Shown: positions 45,162 to 51,966 of the stretch, in pieces
Layout of the letters: each line of letters begins with the position of its first letter
How positions within the stretch are numbered: the stretch's first letter is position 1
Origin: Thermobifida cellulosilytica TB100
GTDB taxonomy: Bacteria > Actinomycetota > Actinomycetes > Streptosporangiales > Streptosporangiaceae
Length of the DNA: 64,000 nucleotides
Direction of reading: 5' to 3'
Assembly (NCBI RefSeq): GCF_001517975.1
Contig: NZ_KQ950181.1
Coordinates: forward strand, 128,052 to 192,051
Notes under the pieces: generated by a model
Databases searched by the model: none
What the model saw: only the letters and a program-made list of their open reading frames with translations
Told to the model about the DNA's origin: nothing
Program-made: the position numbers and the translations under genes

Positions 45162-45935
45162 TCACCCCTCCGGTGGCCGGTACCGGACACCCACCGACGC
45201 CAGCAGGTCGGCCAGTTCGGCCTCGAACAGCGGCTCCATGTCGTCGGGTCCGAACACCATGTTGTGGAAGACCTCCATGCACACCAGGCCGTACAGCCGC
45301 ACCCAGCAGGCGGTGAGCACGCGCAGCTCCCCCTCGGAGTGCCGGCCTGCGATGCCGGCGCTCCGGGCGAACTGCTCGAGCTGGCGGCACAGCTCGGGCG
45401 TGAAGGAGCCGGAGTCGGGGAGCGGGATCCGGTCCTCCTCCAGCAGTCGGTTGAACAGGGTGAGGAAGGTGGAGGCGAAGCGCTGCCCCTCGCGCAGGGC
45501 GGCCTCCTCGTGGGGTCCGGAGGGCTGGTGGGGCGGGCGGGGGCCGAACAGCAGGGCGAACTCGGCCCGGTTGGCCAGCGCCCAGGAGCGGAAGGCGCGC
45601 AGGGACGCCAGGAGGCGGCCGTCGACGTCCTCCTCGGGCACCCCCGTGTTGGCGTCGGTGATCCAGGCGCTCAGCTCGGCGAAGAAGTCCGCCTGCAAGG
45701 ACAGCAGCAGGTCGTTGAGGCTGGCGAAGTAGCGGTAGAGGGCGGGCGCGGTCATCCCCATCTCGCGGGCGATGGCGCGCAGTGAGACGCCTTCGGCCCC
45801 CTGTTCGACGAGGCGGCGCCGGGCGATCGCCTTGATCTCGGTGAACGCGGCCTCGCGCAGCCGCGCCCGACGCGGTTGCGGGGAGGCGGCGGGCGGGGCG
45901 TTGCCGGTGGGCAGGTCGGTGGTGTCCTTGTGCAT
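45162..45935 (-). CDS. TetR-family transcriptional regulator
   Basis: The product is 257 residues. The HTH is SLRAIAREMGMTAPALYRYFASLNDLL (about residues 50-76). The C-terminal domain is all-helical and larger than average. It is divergent from the MMPL transporter; three 19-bp direct repeats lie between the two starts, so it is the likely local repressor of the exporter and itself. Confidence 0.9.
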   Translation of the reverse strand: MHKDTTDLPTGNAPPAASPQPRRARLREAAFTEIKAIARRRLVEQGAEGVSLRAIAREMGMTAPALYRYFASLNDLLLSLQADFFAELSAWITDANTGVPEEDVDGRLLASLRAFRSWALANRAEFALLFGPRPPHQPSGPHEEAALREGQRFASTFLTLFNRLLEEDRIPLPDSGSFTPELCRQLEQFARSAGIAGRHSEGELRVLTACWVRLYGLVCMEVFHNMVFGPDDMEPLFEAELADLLASVGVRYRPPEG

Positions 45936-46068: not shown

Positions 46069-48261
46069 ATGTTCTCTGCGCTCGGCCGGTTCACCTATCG
46101 GGGGCGAGTCTGGGTGCTCCTGGCCACGGTGGTGTTCGTCGTCTTCGCCGCGCTGTGGGGCACCGGGCTGTTCGGCTCGGTCAGCGACGGGGGGTTCGAG
46201 GACCCCGACGCGGAGTCCACCAGGGCGGCCGAGGTGATCGAGGAGGAGCTGGGCCACGACGCGGTGGACGTCGTGGCCGTGTACCGCAGCGACGAGCTGC
46301 GGGTGGACAACCCCACCTTCGCCAAGGCGGTGCAGCGGGTCCTCGACGACCTGCCCGACGAGTACGTCAAGTCGGCCACCAGCTACCTGGACGAGGACCT
46401 CAGCGACATCGAACGCGGCATCCTCGTCTCCGAGGACCGGCACGCGGTGTACGTGCCCATCACCCTCGTGGGCGAGGACCAGGTCGAGCGGATGGAGTCC
46501 TTCGAGGCGATCGCCGCCGACCTCGACGCCGGTCCGCTCGACACCTACCTGGGCGGCTCCGTCGCGATCCAGAGCGAACTGTCCGAGCAGGCCGAGACCG
46601 ACGTGGTGAGCGCCGAGATGATCTCCCTGCCGGTGCTGCTGGTCCTGCTCGTCGTCATCTTCGGCGGAGTGGTCGCCGCCCTGATGCCGCTGGCCGTCGG
46701 CGGTCTGGCGGTCCTCGGCGCGATGGTCCTGCTGCGCGCCCTCACCTACCTCACCGAGGTGTCGGTGTTCGCCGTCAACGTGGCCAGCATCCTCGGCCTG
46801 GGCCTGGCCATCGACTACGGCCTGTTCCTGGTCAGCCGGTTCCGCGAGGAGATGCGCCGCAGCGGCGACGTCGCCTCGGCCGTCCCCGTCACCCTGGCCA
46901 CGGCCGGGCGGACCGTCGCCTTCTCCGGCGTCACCGTGCTCATCGCCTTCGCCGGGCTGCTGTTCTTCCCGCAGCCCATCCTGCGCTCCATCGGCCTGGG
47001 CGGCATCGCCGTCGTCCTGTTCGACCTGGTCGCCGCGCTCGTCGTGCTCCCCGCCCTGCTGGGGGTCATCGGCCGCCGCATCGACGCGCTGCGGCTGCCC
47101 CTGCCCCGGCGGCGCTCCGGCGCCCGCGCCGACGACCGCGTGGGGGGCTGGTCGCGGCTGGCGCACAGCGTCATGCGGCGCCCGGTGCTCTACCTGCTCA
47201 CCGTCACCGCCGTGCTGGTCGCGTTCGCCTCGGCGCTCTTCTCCCTCGACGTCGGCTCCACCGACCAGCGCTACCTGCCCGACGAGGCCGGCAGCCGCCA
47301 GGCCACCGAGATGCTGCGGGAGGACTTCCCGGCTGGCGGCGTCAGCCAGATCGACGTGGTGGTCACCGGGGACGTCGCAGAGGACGACCTGGCGGACTTC
47401 GCCGCGGAGCTGGCCGACCTGGACGGGGCGGAGGGCGCCGGGGTCGGCCGGGTCGGGGACGGCGTCGCGCACCTGACCGTCGCCTACGAGGGCGAGATCG
47501 ACGACGACTCCACCGCGGACCTGGTGGCGGCGGTGCGCGGTGCCGACGCCCCCGCGGGCGCCGACGAGGTGCTGGTCGGCGGCCCGGCCGCGCAGCAGCT
47601 CGACAACATCGACGCCATCGTCGAGACCGTGCCCGCGACCCTGCTGTTCGTCACGCTGACCACCCTGGTCCTGCTGTTCCTGGCGTTCGGCTCGATCGTG
47701 CTGCCGGTCAAGGCGGTGGTCATGGGCCTGCTGTCCCTGGGCGCCTCCCTGGGCGTGGTCATCTGGGGCTTCCAGGAGGGGCACCTGGCCGACCTGCTCG
47801 GCTTCACCGCGGTCGGCACCATCGACCCGACCTTCCTGGTCCTCATCATCATCGTCGCCTTCGGCCTGGCCATGGACTACGAGCTGTTCCTGCTCAGCCG
47901 GGTCCGCGAGGAGTACCTGGCCACCGGCGACAACACCCACTCGGTGGCGGTGGGCCTGCAGCGCACCGGACGCATTATCACCAGCGCCGCGCTGCTGCTC
48001 ATCGTGGTGCTGGCCGCGATGGGCGTGTCCGACCTGCTGTTCCTCAAGATCATCGGCATCGGTCTGGCGGTGGCGGTGGTCGTGGACGCCACCCTGGTGC
48101 GCGCCCTGCTGGTGCCCGCCACGATGCGCCTGCTCGGCGCCGCCAACTGGTGGCTGCCCGGCCCGCTGCGCCGGCTGCACGACCGCATCGGCATCACCGA
48201 GGGCGAGGAGGCCGTGCAGCCCCGCCGCGAGGAGAAGGCGGAGGCGGGCGTCGGCTCCTGA
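46069..48261 (+). CDS. MMPL-family (RND superfamily) exporter
   Basis: The product is 730 residues with the two-fold MMPL layout: TM1, an external domain (about residues 40-170), TM2-6, a cytoplasmic loop, TM7, a second external domain and TM8-12. Motifs include LGLGLAIDYGLFLVSRFREE and the matching second copy VAFGLAMDYELFLLSRVREEY (Asp-Tyr pairs of the proton relay). It exports hydrophobic or amphipathic molecules; substrate unknown. It is regulated with the divergent TetR gene and ends in a strong terminator. Its position next to a microcin C-like locus makes it a candidate exporter for that product (inference). Confidence 0.93.
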   Translation: MFSALGRFTYRGRVWVLLATVVFVVFAALWGTGLFGSVSDGGFEDPDAESTRAAEVIEEELGHDAVDVVAVYRSDELRVDNPTFAKAVQRVLDDLPDEYVKSATSYLDEDLSDIERGILVSEDRHAVYVPITLVGEDQVERMESFEAIAADLDAGPLDTYLGGSVAIQSELSEQAETDVVSAEMISLPVLLVLLVVIFGGVVAALMPLAVGGLAVLGAMVLLRALTYLTEVSVFAVNVASILGLGLAIDYGLFLVSRFREEMRRSGDVASAVPVTLATAGRTVAFSGVTVLIAFAGLLFFPQPILRSIGLGGIAVVLFDLVAALVVLPALLGVIGRRIDALRLPLPRRRSGARADDRVGGWSRLAHSVMRRPVLYLLTVTAVLVAFASALFSLDVGSTDQRYLPDEAGSRQATEMLREDFPAGGVSQIDVVVTGDVAEDDLADFAAELADLDGAEGAGVGRVGDGVAHLTVAYEGEIDDDSTADLVAAVRGADAPAGADEVLVGGPAAQQLDNIDAIVETVPATLLFVTLTTLVLLFLAFGSIVLPVKAVVMGLLSLGASLGVVIWGFQEGHLADLLGFTAVGTIDPTFLVLIIIVAFGLAMDYELFLLSRVREEYLATGDNTHSVAVGLQRTGRIITSAALLLIVVLAAMGVSDLLFLKIIGIGLAVAVVVDATLVRALLVPATMRLLGAANWWLPGPLRRLHDRIGITEGEEAVQPRREEKAEAGVGS

Positions 48262-48336: not shown

Positions 48337-48474
48337 GAGCCGTGCGAGAAATCCGGAGAAACCTCTCCCTTTCCTCCGGGGGTCTGGTGTTAATTTCACT
48401 TCGGGACGCAGCAGATGGGATTCTCGCTGATCCGTCCCGATCTGGTCCGCTCCAGGAGAGGAAAGGAGATTTCC

Positions 48475-48498
48475 GTGAACGGCGACGGCAGCAACTAG
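48475..48498 (+). CDS. mccA: Putative microcin C-like precursor heptapeptide (MNGDGSN)
   Basis: GTG-AAC-GGC-GAC-GGC-AGC-AAC-TAG encodes fMet-Asn-Gly-Asp-Gly-Ser-Asn. AAAGGAG lies 6 bases before the GTG, an ideal ribosome binding site. E. coli MccA is MRTGNAN: also seven residues, also ending in a small residue plus Asn. MccB enzymes modify exactly this terminal Asn. The frame lies near an MccB homologue and a HIT hydrolase but on the opposite strand, not just upstream of mccB as in E. coli. A strong hairpin follows, and the MMPL terminator upstream implies its own promoter, which I could not define. Function is inferred; the peptide is too short for homology statistics. Confidence 0.7.
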   Translation: MNGDGSN

Positions 48499-48514
48499 CA
48501 GCGGAAACGAAGAA

Positions 48515-48551
48515 CATGAGGGTTGGAGGACCAGGTCTTCCAACCCTCATG
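48515..48551. terminator. Hairpin between the heptapeptide gene and the HIT gene
   Basis: 16-bp stem with one G-U pair (arms 48515-48530 and 48536-48551), 5-base loop. For minus-strand transcripts it is followed by TTCTTCGTTTCC, a T-rich tail suited to ending the mccB-HIT operon. For plus-strand transcripts it lies 17 bases after the heptapeptide stop; a hairpin at this place is also known after E. coli mccA. Confidence 0.82.
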
Positions 48552-48619
48552 GAAATCTGTGTGAATGTGTTTTCACGACGTGTCTTCGCGGGCTGTCGCC
48601 CAGAGAAGAAAAGTTTTTC

Positions 48620-49099
48620 TTATCGCTTCGAGTTCCTGATGCGTTCGGCCAGCACGGCCAGTTCCGCATCGTCAGCGCGGGTGTGGTCGTGGGAGGACAG
48701 GTAGCCCCGGTACCGGTCGAAGTAGACGTCCACCGAGGAGCGCACCGCCCGCCAGGCCGCGCCCTCGTTGCCCGCGGTGCCGTGCATGGGGAACAGTTTC
48801 GCGTGGGCGTGGTCCACGCCGTATCCCTCGTACATGATCCCGGTGCGTGCCACGTCCGCGAACGCGGCGTCCAGGCACCGGGCCGCCTCGCGGGCGGCCA
48901 GGTGCAGGGCGAGGTAGGCGTCGGTGTCCATCCGGACCACGTAGCTGGGCCGGTGGGCCTTGGGGATCACCACCGAGAACCCCTCGGTGTTGGGGAAGAT
49001 CGACAGGAATGCCAGGTGGTCCTCGTCCTCCCAGAACGGGTGGCAGGGCTCCTCCCCGGCGGCGATCGCGCAGAAGACGCAGGAAGCAGCGGAAGGCAA
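48620..49099 (-). CDS. HIT-family hydrolase, candidate microcin C immunity enzyme
   Basis: The product is 159 residues from a TTG with AAGGAGG 5 bases upstream. CVFCAIAAGEEP holds a CxxC zinc pair (C7, C10). FPNTEGFSVVIPKAHRPSYV is the HIT nucleotide pocket, and GVDHAHAKLFPMHG is the triad region with H97, H99 and Lys101 where a third His is usual. The middle His, the nucleophile in HIT enzymes, is kept. HIT hydrolases in microcin C-like clusters cut the phosphoramide bond of processed toxin and protect the producer. It is 35 bases downstream of the MccB-like gene on the same strand, hence the same operon. A general housekeeping HIT role remains possible. Confidence 0.88.
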   Translation of the reverse strand: MPSAASCVFCAIAAGEEPCHPFWEDEDHLAFLSIFPNTEGFSVVIPKAHRPSYVVRMDTDAYLALHLAAREAARCLDAAFADVARTGIMYEGYGVDHAHAKLFPMHGTAGNEGAAWRAVRSSVDVYFDRYRGYLSSHDHTRADDAELAVLAERIRNSKR

Positions 49100-49134
49100 A
49101 GAAACCTCCTTCGAGGTTGGTTGTGGTCGTGTAG

Positions 49135-50220
49135 TCAGGGCTGGAGCGGACCACAGGTTGGGCAGTCGGGATCGGGGATGCTTGGCTGCTCGTCCAGGCG
49201 CAGTTCGTGGGTCCACACGCCCACTCTCCGGCCCAGTGACTGCACAAATCCGAAATCGCCCAGGTATTTCAGAGCGTCAAGACTGGCCAACGCGGAGGAG
49301 AGCATGTTGGTCGGACCGTGCGAGGGAGCCTGGTACCGGCGGTTGATGCGGGATATCAAGGCGTCGAGTTCCGCGTTTCCTGAAGGGGCCTGGGCAGTCA
49401 GTGGACGACAGGACCAGCATCCCGTCTTCCCGGGGACGATCAGTGGTCCCCATACCGCGATGTCGTTGACGTAGCACACGTTGAGCCAGGCTGTTTCGGT
49501 CGTGACGCAGTGGGCGTTGACGAGTTCGGTGATGCCCGTGGAATCGGCGGACAGCACGAGCAGGTCGGCTTCGGGAAGGGCAGCGAGATCGGAGAGGTCG
49601 GTCATCCGTCGTCTGATCGTGCACACCTCGACGTCAGGGTTGCGGGAGCGTAGCTCCCGTGCCAGGACCTCGCATTTGGCTGCACCGACGTCGGACTCGG
49701 TGAACAGGTACTGCCGGGTCAGATTGCTCTTCTCGATGTGGTCGGCGTCGACGAGGGTCACCTGGCCCACTCCGGCGGTGGCCAGGGTGACCGACATCAG
49801 ATTGCCGATACCGCCGCAGCCCAAGAAGACGATGTGGCTGTCCGCCAGTCGCTTCTGGACCTCCTGCGAATCGGCACCCGAGAGCCTATAGAACAGGGAG
49901 GGGCGGCTGTAGCGGTCCTCCGGTCGGTAGGAGCCTGCCGGGATGAGGTAGTGGCCGCTACGAAAGATCTCCACGATTTCCTCAGCACGCCCAGGTGAGA
50001 GCCCGCATTCGCGCTCCAGGAAAGCAGCGGCCTCACCGTGAGTGCGGGGAGCCGAGTAGTGGTCGGCGAGACGGATCAAGGGATCCCAGAGGGACGAGTC
50101 GTCAAAGACCCGTTGAATGGAACCGAAACCGAGGAAGAGTTGACCGTCCTGAATACCGATTCGGACGTAGGGAGCGAGTGTGTGTGGTTCCTGAAGGACC
50201 TCGGCCGTGCTCTGACCCAC
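49135..50220 (-). CDS. mccB: MccB-like ThiF-family peptide nucleotidyltransferase
   Basis: The product is 361 residues (E. coli MccB has 350). Residues 1-100 form the MccB-type N-terminal peptide clamp region, ending RPEDRYSRPSLFYRLSGAD. The E1/ThiF domain has LGCGGIGNLMSVTLATAGVG (134-153), LVDADHIEKSNLTRQYLF, VLSADS, CYVNDIAVWGPLIVPGKTGC (249-268) and two zinc CxxC pairs (C268/C271, C353/C356). The blocks NRYS/DRYS, NLTRQ, YVNDIAVFGPL and VPGKTGC occur in the same order in MccB and not in ThiF or MoeB. MccB uses two NTPs to convert the precursor's last Asn to a nucleotidyl phosphoramide. GTG start with AAAGG upstream. Base composition is visibly lower in G+C than the flanks. Confidence 0.9.
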   Translation of the reverse strand: MGQSTAEVLQEPHTLAPYVRIGIQDGQLFLGFGSIQRVFDDSSLWDPLIRLADHYSAPRTHGEAAAFLERECGLSPGRAEEIVEIFRSGHYLIPAGSYRPEDRYSRPSLFYRLSGADSQEVQKRLADSHIVFLGCGGIGNLMSVTLATAGVGQVTLVDADHIEKSNLTRQYLFTESDVGAAKCEVLARELRSRNPDVEVCTIRRRMTDLSDLAALPEADLLVLSADSTGITELVNAHCVTTETAWLNVCYVNDIAVWGPLIVPGKTGCWSCRPLTAQAPSGNAELDALISRINRRYQAPSHGPTNMLSSALASLDALKYLGDFGFVQSLGRRVGVWTHELRLDEQPSIPDPDCPTCGPLQP

Positions 50221-50397
50221 AACTGACGCCTTTCACGGAAGTGGTCGATGACTGATGAGTTCCTGGTCCTGGACGGTAGAAGCAGCCGTTGGGTCAAGGA
50301 GCAAGGTTGCTTGAGATTGCTGACGTAGTGGTGGGAAATTTTTGAAGACTCCGCAGAGAGGCGGACAAACTGGGAGTACCTACCGAGGAGGAGAGGT

Positions 50398-50598
50398 ATG
50401 AAGCTGCGCAAGCTTGGAACGACGTCAGTTGGCGGGAAGTGCCCTACTCTGTACGAAACGGACAGCGGGGACATCGTCGTGCAGGGCTACCGACTCACCG
50501 ACGCCGAGGCGCTGGCTCAGTTGGAGGATGTGCTTCCCAACGAGACGTTCGTCATCGTTCCTCGAGAACTGATGGTTCGTTTCGCGCCCAAGGAGTAG
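50398..50598 (+). CDS. Small hypothetical protein, 66 residues, linked to DUF6879/XRE pair
   Basis: MKLRKLGTTSVGGKCPTLYE begins a compact alpha/beta-looking small protein with DIVVQGYRLTDAEALAQL in the middle and FAPKE at the end. It has GAGGAGG before the ATG and is 4 bases from the next gene, so it is co-transcribed with the DUF6879 and XRE genes. Such small proteins are common in these actinobacterial regulator triads. It is not a microcin C precursor by sequence: it is long and ends in Lys-Glu, not Asn. Confidence 0.75.
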   Translation: MKLRKLGTTSVGGKCPTLYETDSGDIVVQGYRLTDAEALAQLEDVLPNETFVIVPRELMVRFAPKE

Positions 50599-50602
50599 CG
50601 GT

Positions 50603-51130
50603 ATGCGCGAATACCTGAACGATGACGACTTCACTGCTTTGTTCCGGTCTTATCGGTACACTGCGTGGCGTCTGGAGACTCGGCGCTACTACGGCAACGT
50701 TGGTGAGGACAAGCAGTTCCAGGAGTGGTTGGCGGGGAAGGACCCCGGAGTCGAGTGGCTCAGACCGTGGCTGGGCATGGTGCGGGAGGAACTCGCCAAG
50801 GGGAAGCGGATGGAACGGGTGCGAATCGTCGATAACCCGCCCTCGGATTACCTGCGCTGGGAACTGTGGGCCACTCCCTACAACCTCGCGGTGGGTGAGG
50901 ACATCCGCTACCTGTCCCGGGACCACCCTATCGTCGCGGAACTTCCCGACGAGGATTTCTGGATCTTCGACAGCCGCACCTTGGCGCGGTTCGAGTTCGA
51001 TGGCGATGATGTCGCCGGCATCTGGCTTGACGACACTCCTGAAGCTGTTGTGACTGCTCTTGCCGCCCGGGACGCGGCGTGGCACCATGCGCTCACCTAC
51101 ACCGACTACCTGGCGGCAAGGGTGGGATGA
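50603..51130 (+). CDS. DUF6879 protein
   Basis: The product is 175 residues. It contains FTALFRSYRYTAWRLETRRYY, PWLGMVREELAKGKRMERVRIV, LRWELWATPYNLAVGEDIRYL and DFWIFDSRTLARFEFDG, the usual DUF6879 blocks. Members sit next to XRE regulators with a DUF5753 ligand domain, as here (ATGA overlap with the next gene). They are thought to act with those regulators; the biochemical role is unknown. Confidence 0.85.
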   Translation: MREYLNDDDFTALFRSYRYTAWRLETRRYYGNVGEDKQFQEWLAGKDPGVEWLRPWLGMVREELAKGKRMERVRIVDNPPSDYLRWELWATPYNLAVGEDIRYLSRDHPIVAELPDEDFWIFDSRTLARFEFDGDDVAGIWLDDTPEAVVTALAARDAAWHHALTYTDYLAARVG

Positions 51131-51966
51131 CCGACTACCAGACGGCCCGGACCTCCTTGGGGGCGCGGTTACGTGAGATCCGGATGGAGGCCGGGCTGTC
51201 AGGGCGGGCGTTGGCCCAAGCCCTGGGGTGGCATCCGTCAAAAGTGTCCAAGCTGGAGTTGGGCAGGCAGACCGCTTCTGTGGCGGACCTGAAAGCATGG
51301 GCGGCGGCCTGTGACGTGCCGGAGACCGCCGCCGAACTGCTTGCGATGCGCAGGACGCTGGAAACCCACTATGCGAGCTGGCGCCGACAGCTTGCTGGAG
51401 GCACCAGGGCCAGACAGGCGACCTTCGTCGACGTGGAGAGTCGGATGCGTCGACTCCGGGCTTTTGAGACAGCAGTGGTTCCAGGACTGATGCAAACCCC
51501 TGACTACGCCCGATACGTCCTGCGTAACGTGGTGGCCCTACACGGCGCACCGGACGATGTCGAAGCTGGTGTCCGTACCCGGATGGAACGCGCCCGCGTC
51601 CTCGAAGATCCGGGAAAGACGTTCGACATCGTCCTGTGGGAGCCGGTTCTGTATGCGCGGGTTTGCCCGGGGGAGGTCATGGTTGGCCAGTTGGACCGTA
51701 TTGCGGAGCTGATCATCCGCAAGGGTTCGATGATCGGGATTGTTCCGCTGCACATCCGGCTTCCCGCGATCCCCGAACACGGCTTCTGGATCTTCGACGA
51801 CGACCGTGTGAATGTGGAGACGGTCGGCGCAGAGCTCTCCCTCACCGACAACGACGCGATCGAGCCCTACCGCCGGGTCTTTGCGAGGCTCTCCCAGGCA
51901 GCATTGCGTGGCCAGGCCGCACTGCGCCTTGTGGCACGGGCACGGCATCAGCTCGTACCTGTCTGA
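51127..51966 (+). CDS. XRE-family regulator with DUF5753 domain
   Basis: The product is 279 residues. HTH at LGARLREIRMEAGLSGRALAQALGWHPSKVSKLELGRQ (seen in two parts, about residues 11-48), followed by the DUF5753 domain: VVPGLMQTPDYARYVLRNVV, RARVLEDPGKTFDIVLWEPVLY, GVVPLHIRLPAIPEHGFWIFDD-like block. It is of the WhiJ/AbaA-like group of actinobacterial regulators. It and the DUF6879 gene are the only regulators in the low-G+C island, so they may control the microcin C-like genes, or be an independent cassette. Confidence 0.9.
   Translation: MTDYQTARTSLGARLREIRMEAGLSGRALAQALGWHPSKVSKLELGRQTASVADLKAWAAACDVPETAAELLAMRRTLETHYASWRRQLAGGTRARQATFVDVESRMRRLRAFETAVVPGLMQTPDYARYVLRNVVALHGAPDDVEAGVRTRMERARVLEDPGKTFDIVLWEPVLYARVCPGEVMVGQLDRIAELIIRKGSMIGIVPLHIRLPAIPEHGFWIFDDDRVNVETVGAELSLTDNDAIEPYRRVFARLSQAALRGQAALRLVARARHQLVPV

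Follow-up and report, generated by a model that had tools for sequence, protein, structure and literature searches.

Among the described systems closest to the locus reported here are the microcin C cluster of Escherichia coli (mccABCDEF) and the mcc clusters of Hyalangium minutum and Nocardia vaccinii. For components from E. coli and H. minutum, adenylation of the peptide, its processing, inhibition of aspartyl-tRNA synthetase (AspRS) and cleavage by MccH have been published (PMC7157772, PMC6495379; papers are given by their PubMed Central (PMC) numbers and cited from the accessible parts of their text). The minimal mcc set consists of a precursor gene (mccA), mccB and an export gene (PMC9239234, PMC6495379), and the published marks of MccA are a Met start, seven residues, an Asn end and a strong Shine-Dalgarno sequence (PMC6495379). 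It is also already in print that Nocardiopsis and Thermobifida carry mcc-like clusters and that a Nocardiopsis MccH gives resistance (PMC7157772). Here we describe a cassette of this type in a stretch of 64,000 nucleotides (the window) from Thermobifida cellulosilytica TB100, whose genome is 4.43 Mb (contig NZ_KQ950181.1, positions 128,052 to 192,051). Its likely product is a peptide-nucleotide toxin, which would block protein synthesis.

A first-pass annotation, made from the letters of the window, had placed an MccB-like enzyme, a HIT hydrolase and an Asn-ending heptapeptide gene at this locus, and the sequence check bore out the coordinates of all three. Its span of 48475..50220 was too short: conservation extends from about 48348 to 51966 and takes in two overlooked parts, a divergent regulator-type operon and a shared repeat that resembles an operator. 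The core features are as follows.

49135..50220, minus strand: mccB, a predicted peptide adenylyltransferase of 361 amino acids with a GTG start, an MccB-type N-terminal domain, a ThiF fold and two CxxC motifs
48620..49099, minus strand: mccH, a HIT hydrolase and predicted immunity phosphoramidase, with a TTG start preceded by AAGGAGG and an E-x5-HxHxK signature
48475..48498, plus strand: mccA, the seven-codon precursor gene (MNGDGSN), with a GTG start, conserved in 20 of 20 carriers
48462..48468, plus strand: AAAGGAG, the Shine-Dalgarno sequence of mccA; such a sequence is present in all 20 carriers

Carriers were defined by searching the genomes of the order, class and phylum with the MccB of the window as query (E<=1e-50). 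At the order level 20 of 297 genomes were carriers, the window's own among them; at the class level 9 of 394 genomes matched, eight with the same kind of cassette and one (G508) with a different one; and at the phylum level the only match among 396 genomes was the window's own. The 20 carriers belong to the Thermobifida-Nocardiopsis group, Murinocardiopsis included, and share a common compact gene set, mostly lacking a recognised exporter gene close by, in which all three of the genes first noticed are present. Their MccB proteins are down to 57% identical to that of the window. The 20 loci are related and two are nearly identical, so they do not represent 20 independent events. A further 8 of 18 matched genomes had weaker MccB matches (31-37% identity); these were counted as non-carriers and placed in the MccB tree only, except L017, which fell out.

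The assignment of the enzyme to MccB rests on sequence, phylogeny and fold. In a phmmer search the 361-residue protein matched E. coli MccB (3h5n) at E=2.5e-70, and the aligned part (residues 14-357) takes in the N-terminal domain; the structures 3h5n, 3h5a and 6om4 all matched at about 1e-70, and the next solved relatives, ThiF, followed at 1e-22 in an alignment beginning only at residue 103. Identity to the plasmid-borne E. coli protein (L051), which is MccB itself (3h5n at 2.9e-238), is 37%. For the AlphaFold model (mean pLDDT 91.8), the 24 top matches in the PDB are all E. coli MccB chains (TM 0.85-0.89), followed by PaaA at TM 0.66 and then by ThiF and MoeB. A tree of 50 rows puts the cassette enzymes on one branch (SH-aLRT 97) with E. 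coli MccB, to the exclusion of the genome's own MoeZ (L002) and other ThiF-type enzymes; the tree was built by a 'quick' method, and E. coli MccB forms a long branch in it. Its rows include 18 of the 20 cassette enzymes and 20 of 120 listed homologues. The two cassette enzymes left out are those of Thermobifida fusca, with frame changes, and of L007 (G088:C9), with one TGA counted within the MccB match. Clustering with MoeB/ThiF, named beforehand as the result that would speak against an MccB, was thus not seen, and a housekeeping ThiF/MoeB enzyme was ruled out by the full-length match, the tree and the fold, MoeZ being a separate gene. Furthermore, N166, L167, R169, Q170, K182, S224, D226 and the four Cys of both CxxC motifs are invariant in an alignment of 33 rows; the roles of the Arg, Lys and Asp (R169, K182, D226) are taken from PMC12250964.

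Family databases describe the enzyme less specifically. Pfam finds ThiF only, and no MccB model of NCBIfam matched, the best being ThiF/MoeB models far under their cut-offs. The TOMM leader-binding model is narrowly passed (38.9 bits, cut-off 36.9), in keeping with its name in databases, 'TOMM precursor leader peptide-binding protein'; the other label in use is ThiF-family protein. No phage record covers at least 80% of the window enzyme. Additional MccB relatives (P0042-P0120) are mostly 40-50% identical and mostly metagenomic, a few being labelled Planctomycetota, Gammaproteobacteria or Waddliaceae. The first-pass annotation had left the added nucleotide as adenylate or cytidylate. Of the two, adenylate is the more likely, because Pfam shows ThiF without the extra domain of bifunctional cytidylating MccBs (PMC9239234) and because the characterised MccH cleaves aspartamide-adenylate.

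At the precursor gene, conservation centres on the reading frame. A seven-codon frame encoding MN(G/D)DG(S/N/D)N, with a Shine-Dalgarno sequence, occupies the same convergent place in all 20 carriers, on the opposite strand and 68-121 nt past the stop codon of mccH; the peptides are MNDDGNN (14), MNGDGSN (4), MNGDGDN (1) and MNDDGSN (1). All the published marks of MccA, as well as nearness to mccB, were found in every carrier, and a Shine-Dalgarno sequence and start followed by exactly seven codons ending in Asn occurred in 0.0002 of Markov-shuffled copies of these regions (n=10000). Across the carriers the 24-nt frame has a mean consensus of 92% with 15 of 24 columns invariant, whereas the flanks (-60 to -21, and 40 nt after the frame) have a mean of 51% with 0 invariant columns; the Shine-Dalgarno stretch between flank and frame has 67%. 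Within mccA, third codon positions, residues 3 and 6 and the stop codon (TAG/TGA/TAA) vary, while the length of seven and the last Asn stay constant. Judged by this conservation, the heptapeptide frame is a genuine gene and predicted to encode the precursor, as had been proposed. A few other Asn-ending frames occur near mccB, and none is common beyond the window and the nearly identical L026.

Downstream of mccA lies a strong hairpin.

48515..48551, plus strand: hairpin with a 17-bp stem between mccA and mccH, likely a bidirectional terminator; a strong hairpin is present in 19 of 20 carriers

In these 19 loci the hairpin has about -27 to -36 kcal/mol, with at most 1 in 15 shuffles as stable, and its arms differ in sequence between loci yet remain paired; the twentieth locus (L045) has only a weak hairpin, in a stretch with an undetermined base. 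The window hairpin has no T tract and was not reported by the terminator scan, so its role as terminator is putative. A strong hairpin adjoining the frame, together with the absence of any Rfam match at the locus, which would allow an undescribed RNA, could also suggest that the seven codons are no gene but arise incidentally within a conserved regulatory RNA or a terminator leader. This explanation is extremely improbable: conservation is concentrated in the frame and not in its flanks, and the variation follows codon positions, residues 3 and 6 and alternative stop codons.

The HIT protein carries the features of an immunity enzyme. It passes the Pfam HIT model at 23.5 bits (cut-off 21.5) and contains the motif E-G-Y-G-V-D-H-A-H-A-K. 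Members of the MccH clade are described as having ExxxxxHxHxK, with the first HinT histidine replaced by Phe (PMC7157772). The E-x5-HxHxK motif occurs in the HIT proteins of all 20 carriers, and Phe at the first HinT-histidine position was seen in the alignment of the window's protein. For clade members including the N. kunsanensis homologue, hydrolysis of aspartamide-adenylate has been published, and N. kunsanensis MccH is among the homologues giving resistance in E. coli (PMC7157772). From its sequence, the HIT protein is predicted to be an MccH-type immunity phosphoramidase, in agreement with the immunity role first suggested. A second, partial mccH-like stretch was observed in one Thermobifida locus (L027, 13779-14040; residues 7-66 87% identical, residues 129-159 68%); it sits in more than 4 kb between mccA and an MMPL gene, a stretch absent from the other three Thermobifida loci.

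A different chemistry at the heptapeptide has to be considered, since ThiF-like enzymes acting on ribosomally synthesized and post-translationally modified peptides (RiPPs) catalyse several reactions (PMC12250964) and the identity to E. coli MccB is limited. The enzyme could form an amide, imide or thioester, and the HIT protein could serve another purpose. This seems highly unlikely in view of the full-length MccB match, a fold closer to MccB than to PaaA, the MccH-clade signature adjoining in all carriers and the invariant C-terminal Asn.

Beyond the mccB promoter region, a divergent operon of three genes is present in all 20 carriers, and the regions before mccB and mccA contain repeats and putative promoter elements.

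50398..50598, plus strand: protein of 66 amino acids, conserved in 20 of 20 carriers and matching no Pfam or NCBIfam family
50603..51130, plus strand: DUF6879 protein (PF21806, 6.9e-53)
51127..51966, plus strand: XRE-type helix-turn-helix and DUF5753 protein with the WhiJ-type domain pair, the predicted cassette regulator
50306..50320, minus strand: direct repeat GCAATCTCAAGCAAC, predicted operator before mccB and sole match to the repeat pattern in the window's genome
50273..50278, minus strand: putative -10 element (TACCGT) of the mccB promoter
48348..48362, plus strand: degenerate copy of the direct repeat, GAAATCCGGAGAAAC, conserved in position, weak in sequence and unmatched at up to 2 mismatches
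48390..48396, plus strand: putative -10 element (TTAATTT) of the mccA promoter, placed by its spacing

The repeat GCAAYnnnnnGCAAY, with a period of 10 bp, lies between mccB and the divergent operon in all 20 carriers (null 0.001 per 250 nt), and TANNNT follows it after 27-28 nt in each. In 15 of 20 carriers a copy oriented towards mccA lies 119-133 nt before that gene with at most two mismatches (null 0.002); it is weaker or degraded in L032, the window and three other Thermobifida loci. A sigma-70 consensus scan found no promoter-like site at the putative mccA promoter. The pattern GCAAYNYCVMGCAAN has 53 matches across the 20 genomes, 33 at the cassette and 20 elsewhere (sites were assigned by hand), with both cassette sites matched in 13 genomes and one in 7. 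The pattern was derived from the cassette loci, so the cassette matches follow by construction and the informative part is that there is no surplus elsewhere: the reversed control pattern also gave 20 matches. One off-cassette copy, GCAATCTCGCGCAA at G133:C3:84001-84014, is identical to common cassette copies and lies on a non-cassette contig; it is a possible second target, or chance.

In Streptomyces venezuelae, WhiJ9 binds direct repeats (consensus CGXXCTCAAC) that separate its gene from the target gene (PMC10294661), and by this analogy the XRE protein is predicted to drive both facing promoters. The DUF397 (BldB-type) partner of WhiJ loci was not found in the operon, where the 66-residue protein has no Pfam match and its neighbour is DUF6879. 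DUF397-like small proteins were seen nearby in some Nocardiopsis loci: those of L030, L031 and L032, recognised by motif, lie about 0.2-0.35 kb upstream of mccA and in L030 and L032 adjoin an XRE-type regulator. Of the 16 non-Thermobifida loci, 10 have a member of the DUF397-like family no farther than about 9 kb from the cassette.

In the proposed mechanism, the XRE-DUF5753 protein would bind the repeat and switch on mccB-mccH and mccA jointly, and mccA, on its own convergent transcript closed by the hairpin, would supply peptide in excess over enzyme. The excess of peptide over enzyme in E. coli comes from a terminator that separates mccA from mccB. MccB would adenylate the Asn of the (formyl-)heptapeptide, peptidases would free aspartamide-adenylate, which would inhibit AspRS, and MccH would cleave the phosphoramide of the toxin. 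The product would leave the cell by a transporter encoded elsewhere and act as a Trojan-horse antibiotic. For the cassette carriers we infer these steps by analogy with the published components. In each of four carriers tested a single AspRS passes the family cut-off and further matches fall far below it, so nothing points to a spare resistant AspRS.

Export is the point at which the locus departs from the minimal set. As noted at first, there is no recognisable linked MccC, and neither MccD nor MccE is among the families common to the loci. Of the 16 non-Thermobifida loci, only four have open reading frames predicted to span the membrane four or more times within about 9 kb of the cassette; this is a crude hydropathy count, and in L053 the contig ends on the mccA side. 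With the MFS gene of the classical relative L046, described below, as query, none of 6 carriers gave a match at E<=1e-5; that of L046 is itself matched at 9.1e-12 by the MFS next to E. coli mccB. Since divergence is quick in the MFS superfamily, an unlinked exporter may exist. A transporter gene does lie close to mccA in the window.

46069-48261: MMPL-family transporter, named from sequence reading
45162-45935: TetR-like regulator, named from sequence reading

Both genes lie upstream of mccA; they are present in four Thermobifida loci and absent from six other loci compared. The MMPL gene adjoins mccA in three of the four and is about 4.7 kb off in L027. Because the six other loci lack it, it was rejected as the cassette exporter and is probably a flanking gene. 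As hydropathy and sequence searches gave no linked export gene, the locus is filed as a variant and not as a complete minimal mcc cluster.

Taken together, we consider it probable, if by no means certain, that this is a microcin C-type peptide-nucleotide cassette whose product is exported by a transporter elsewhere and acts as a Trojan-horse antibiotic. Several observations weigh against this. No family of open reading frames with at least four spans recurs (in three or more loci) around the 16 non-Thermobifida cassettes, and the MFS beside E. coli mccB finds only one weak match in 7 carriers (6.4e-6, 24% identity); with no exporter recognised, the secreted half of the reading is weakened. The cassette peptide is nearly invariant, unlike the MccA sequences of the major clade, which are said to vary greatly (PMC6495379). 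In the four Thermobifida loci the repeat before mccA is degenerate, so co-regulation is weaker there than in Nocardiopsis, and binding of the repeat by the regulator is inferred from the WhiJ9 analogy only. A secreted antibiotic, as first suggested, is therefore no more than a prediction, since the export gene of the minimal set was not recognised at the locus.

The lack of a recurring linked exporter, or of any MccC relative beyond one weak match, could also mean that the peptide-nucleotide stays inside the cell as a brake on translation. In response to development, stress or phage the regulator would switch the cassette on, MccB would make the toxin precursor, the cell's own peptidases would free the AspRS inhibitor, translation would slow or stop, and MccH would set the threshold or reverse the effect in the manner of an antitoxin. 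The near-invariant peptide fits this, as does the presence of the XRE-DUF5753/DUF6879/66-residue operon in all carriers, XRE-type loci being tied to Streptomyces development (PMC10294661). The T. fusca locus (L034, G040:C25, 7275-10595) has an mccB broken up between frames 2-3-2 and an XRE regulator spread across several frames, with mccH, DUF6879 and mccA intact, as if the toxin maker had been lost and immunity kept; however, these frame changes could be draft-assembly errors. Moreover, the McC systems described in the accessible literature are exported, the Thermobifida loci have the MMPL transporter upstream of mccA, an exporter may be encoded away from the cassette, and PADLOC models gave only generic E1-like (E1-E2), HIT and HTH matches. 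We regard an internal brake as rather unlikely. Its fuller form, in which Thermobifida, Murinocardiopsis and Nocardiopsis hold an internal weapon or brake, a WhiJ-type regulator working through a private repeat at two facing promoters sets off mccB-mccH and mccA jointly, and the unexported product stops the cell's own AspRS until MccH clears it, is unlikely. If true, it would amount to a RiPP nucleotide-based system of toxin-antitoxin-like or abortive type, and to our knowledge no such system is known. The locus raises the sharp question of why a conserved toxin-making cassette should come with immunity and a linked regulator, yet without a linked exporter. Its predicted substrate, having seven residues, is testable in one mass-spectrometry assay.

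The novelty of the locus was assessed against open-licence PMC main texts. The peptides MNGDGSN, MNDDGNN, MNGDGDN and MLKLGGN are absent from them, although Table S1 of PMC6495379 may list some; the accessible texts showed neither the convergent layout nor the regulator operon and its repeat nor the lack of an exporter, and no text joins microcin C, phage defense and aspartyl-tRNA synthetase. The locus had been called unannotated. This holds only in part, because PMC7157772 names Nocardiopsis and Thermobifida as bearers of mcc-like clusters and includes a test of MccH from N. kunsanensis. Those clusters are very likely the same as the cassette; the accessible text of PMC7157772 describes no precursor peptide, layout, regulator, operator or exporter question for them.

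Compared with E. coli microcin C, the cassette shares the MccB-type enzyme, the seven-residue Asn-ending precursor and the hairpin after mccA (PMC6495379). In E. coli mccA stands before mccB, whereas here it is convergent at the far end; the cassette has MccH and not MccE/MccF, a divergent regulator-type operon in addition, no recognised MccC, and no MccD/MccE among the families common to the loci. The order mccB then mccH is shared with H. minutum, which differs in its 36- and 46-residue precursors, two mccB genes and linked ABC-type transporter (PMC7157772). The N. vaccinii system is likewise an mcc cluster in an actinobacterium, but has a 21-residue precursor, a bifunctional MccB, cytidylate, MccG immunity and a linked mccC (PMC9239234). 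A relative outside the group (L046 in G508; C229, 7574-9963) is a classical actinobacterial mcc cluster in textbook order, with the peptide MLKLGGN, mccB (43% identical to that of the window) and MFS on the same strand; the peptide is at position 2647 of L035, where there is no HIT match to the window mccH. With Streptomyces WhiJ/BldB/AbaA-type loci the cassette has in common an XRE and DUF5753 regulator beside small proteins (PMC10294661, PMC10364602); it differs in its partners, DUF6879 and a 66-residue protein without DUF397 match, in the sequence and copy number of its repeat and in its predicted target, a toxin-synthesis operon. In this way, a predicted precursor peptide and a full gene set are supplied for an actinobacterial branch of microcin C that, in the accessible literature, has so far been in print through MccH and the mention of its clusters.

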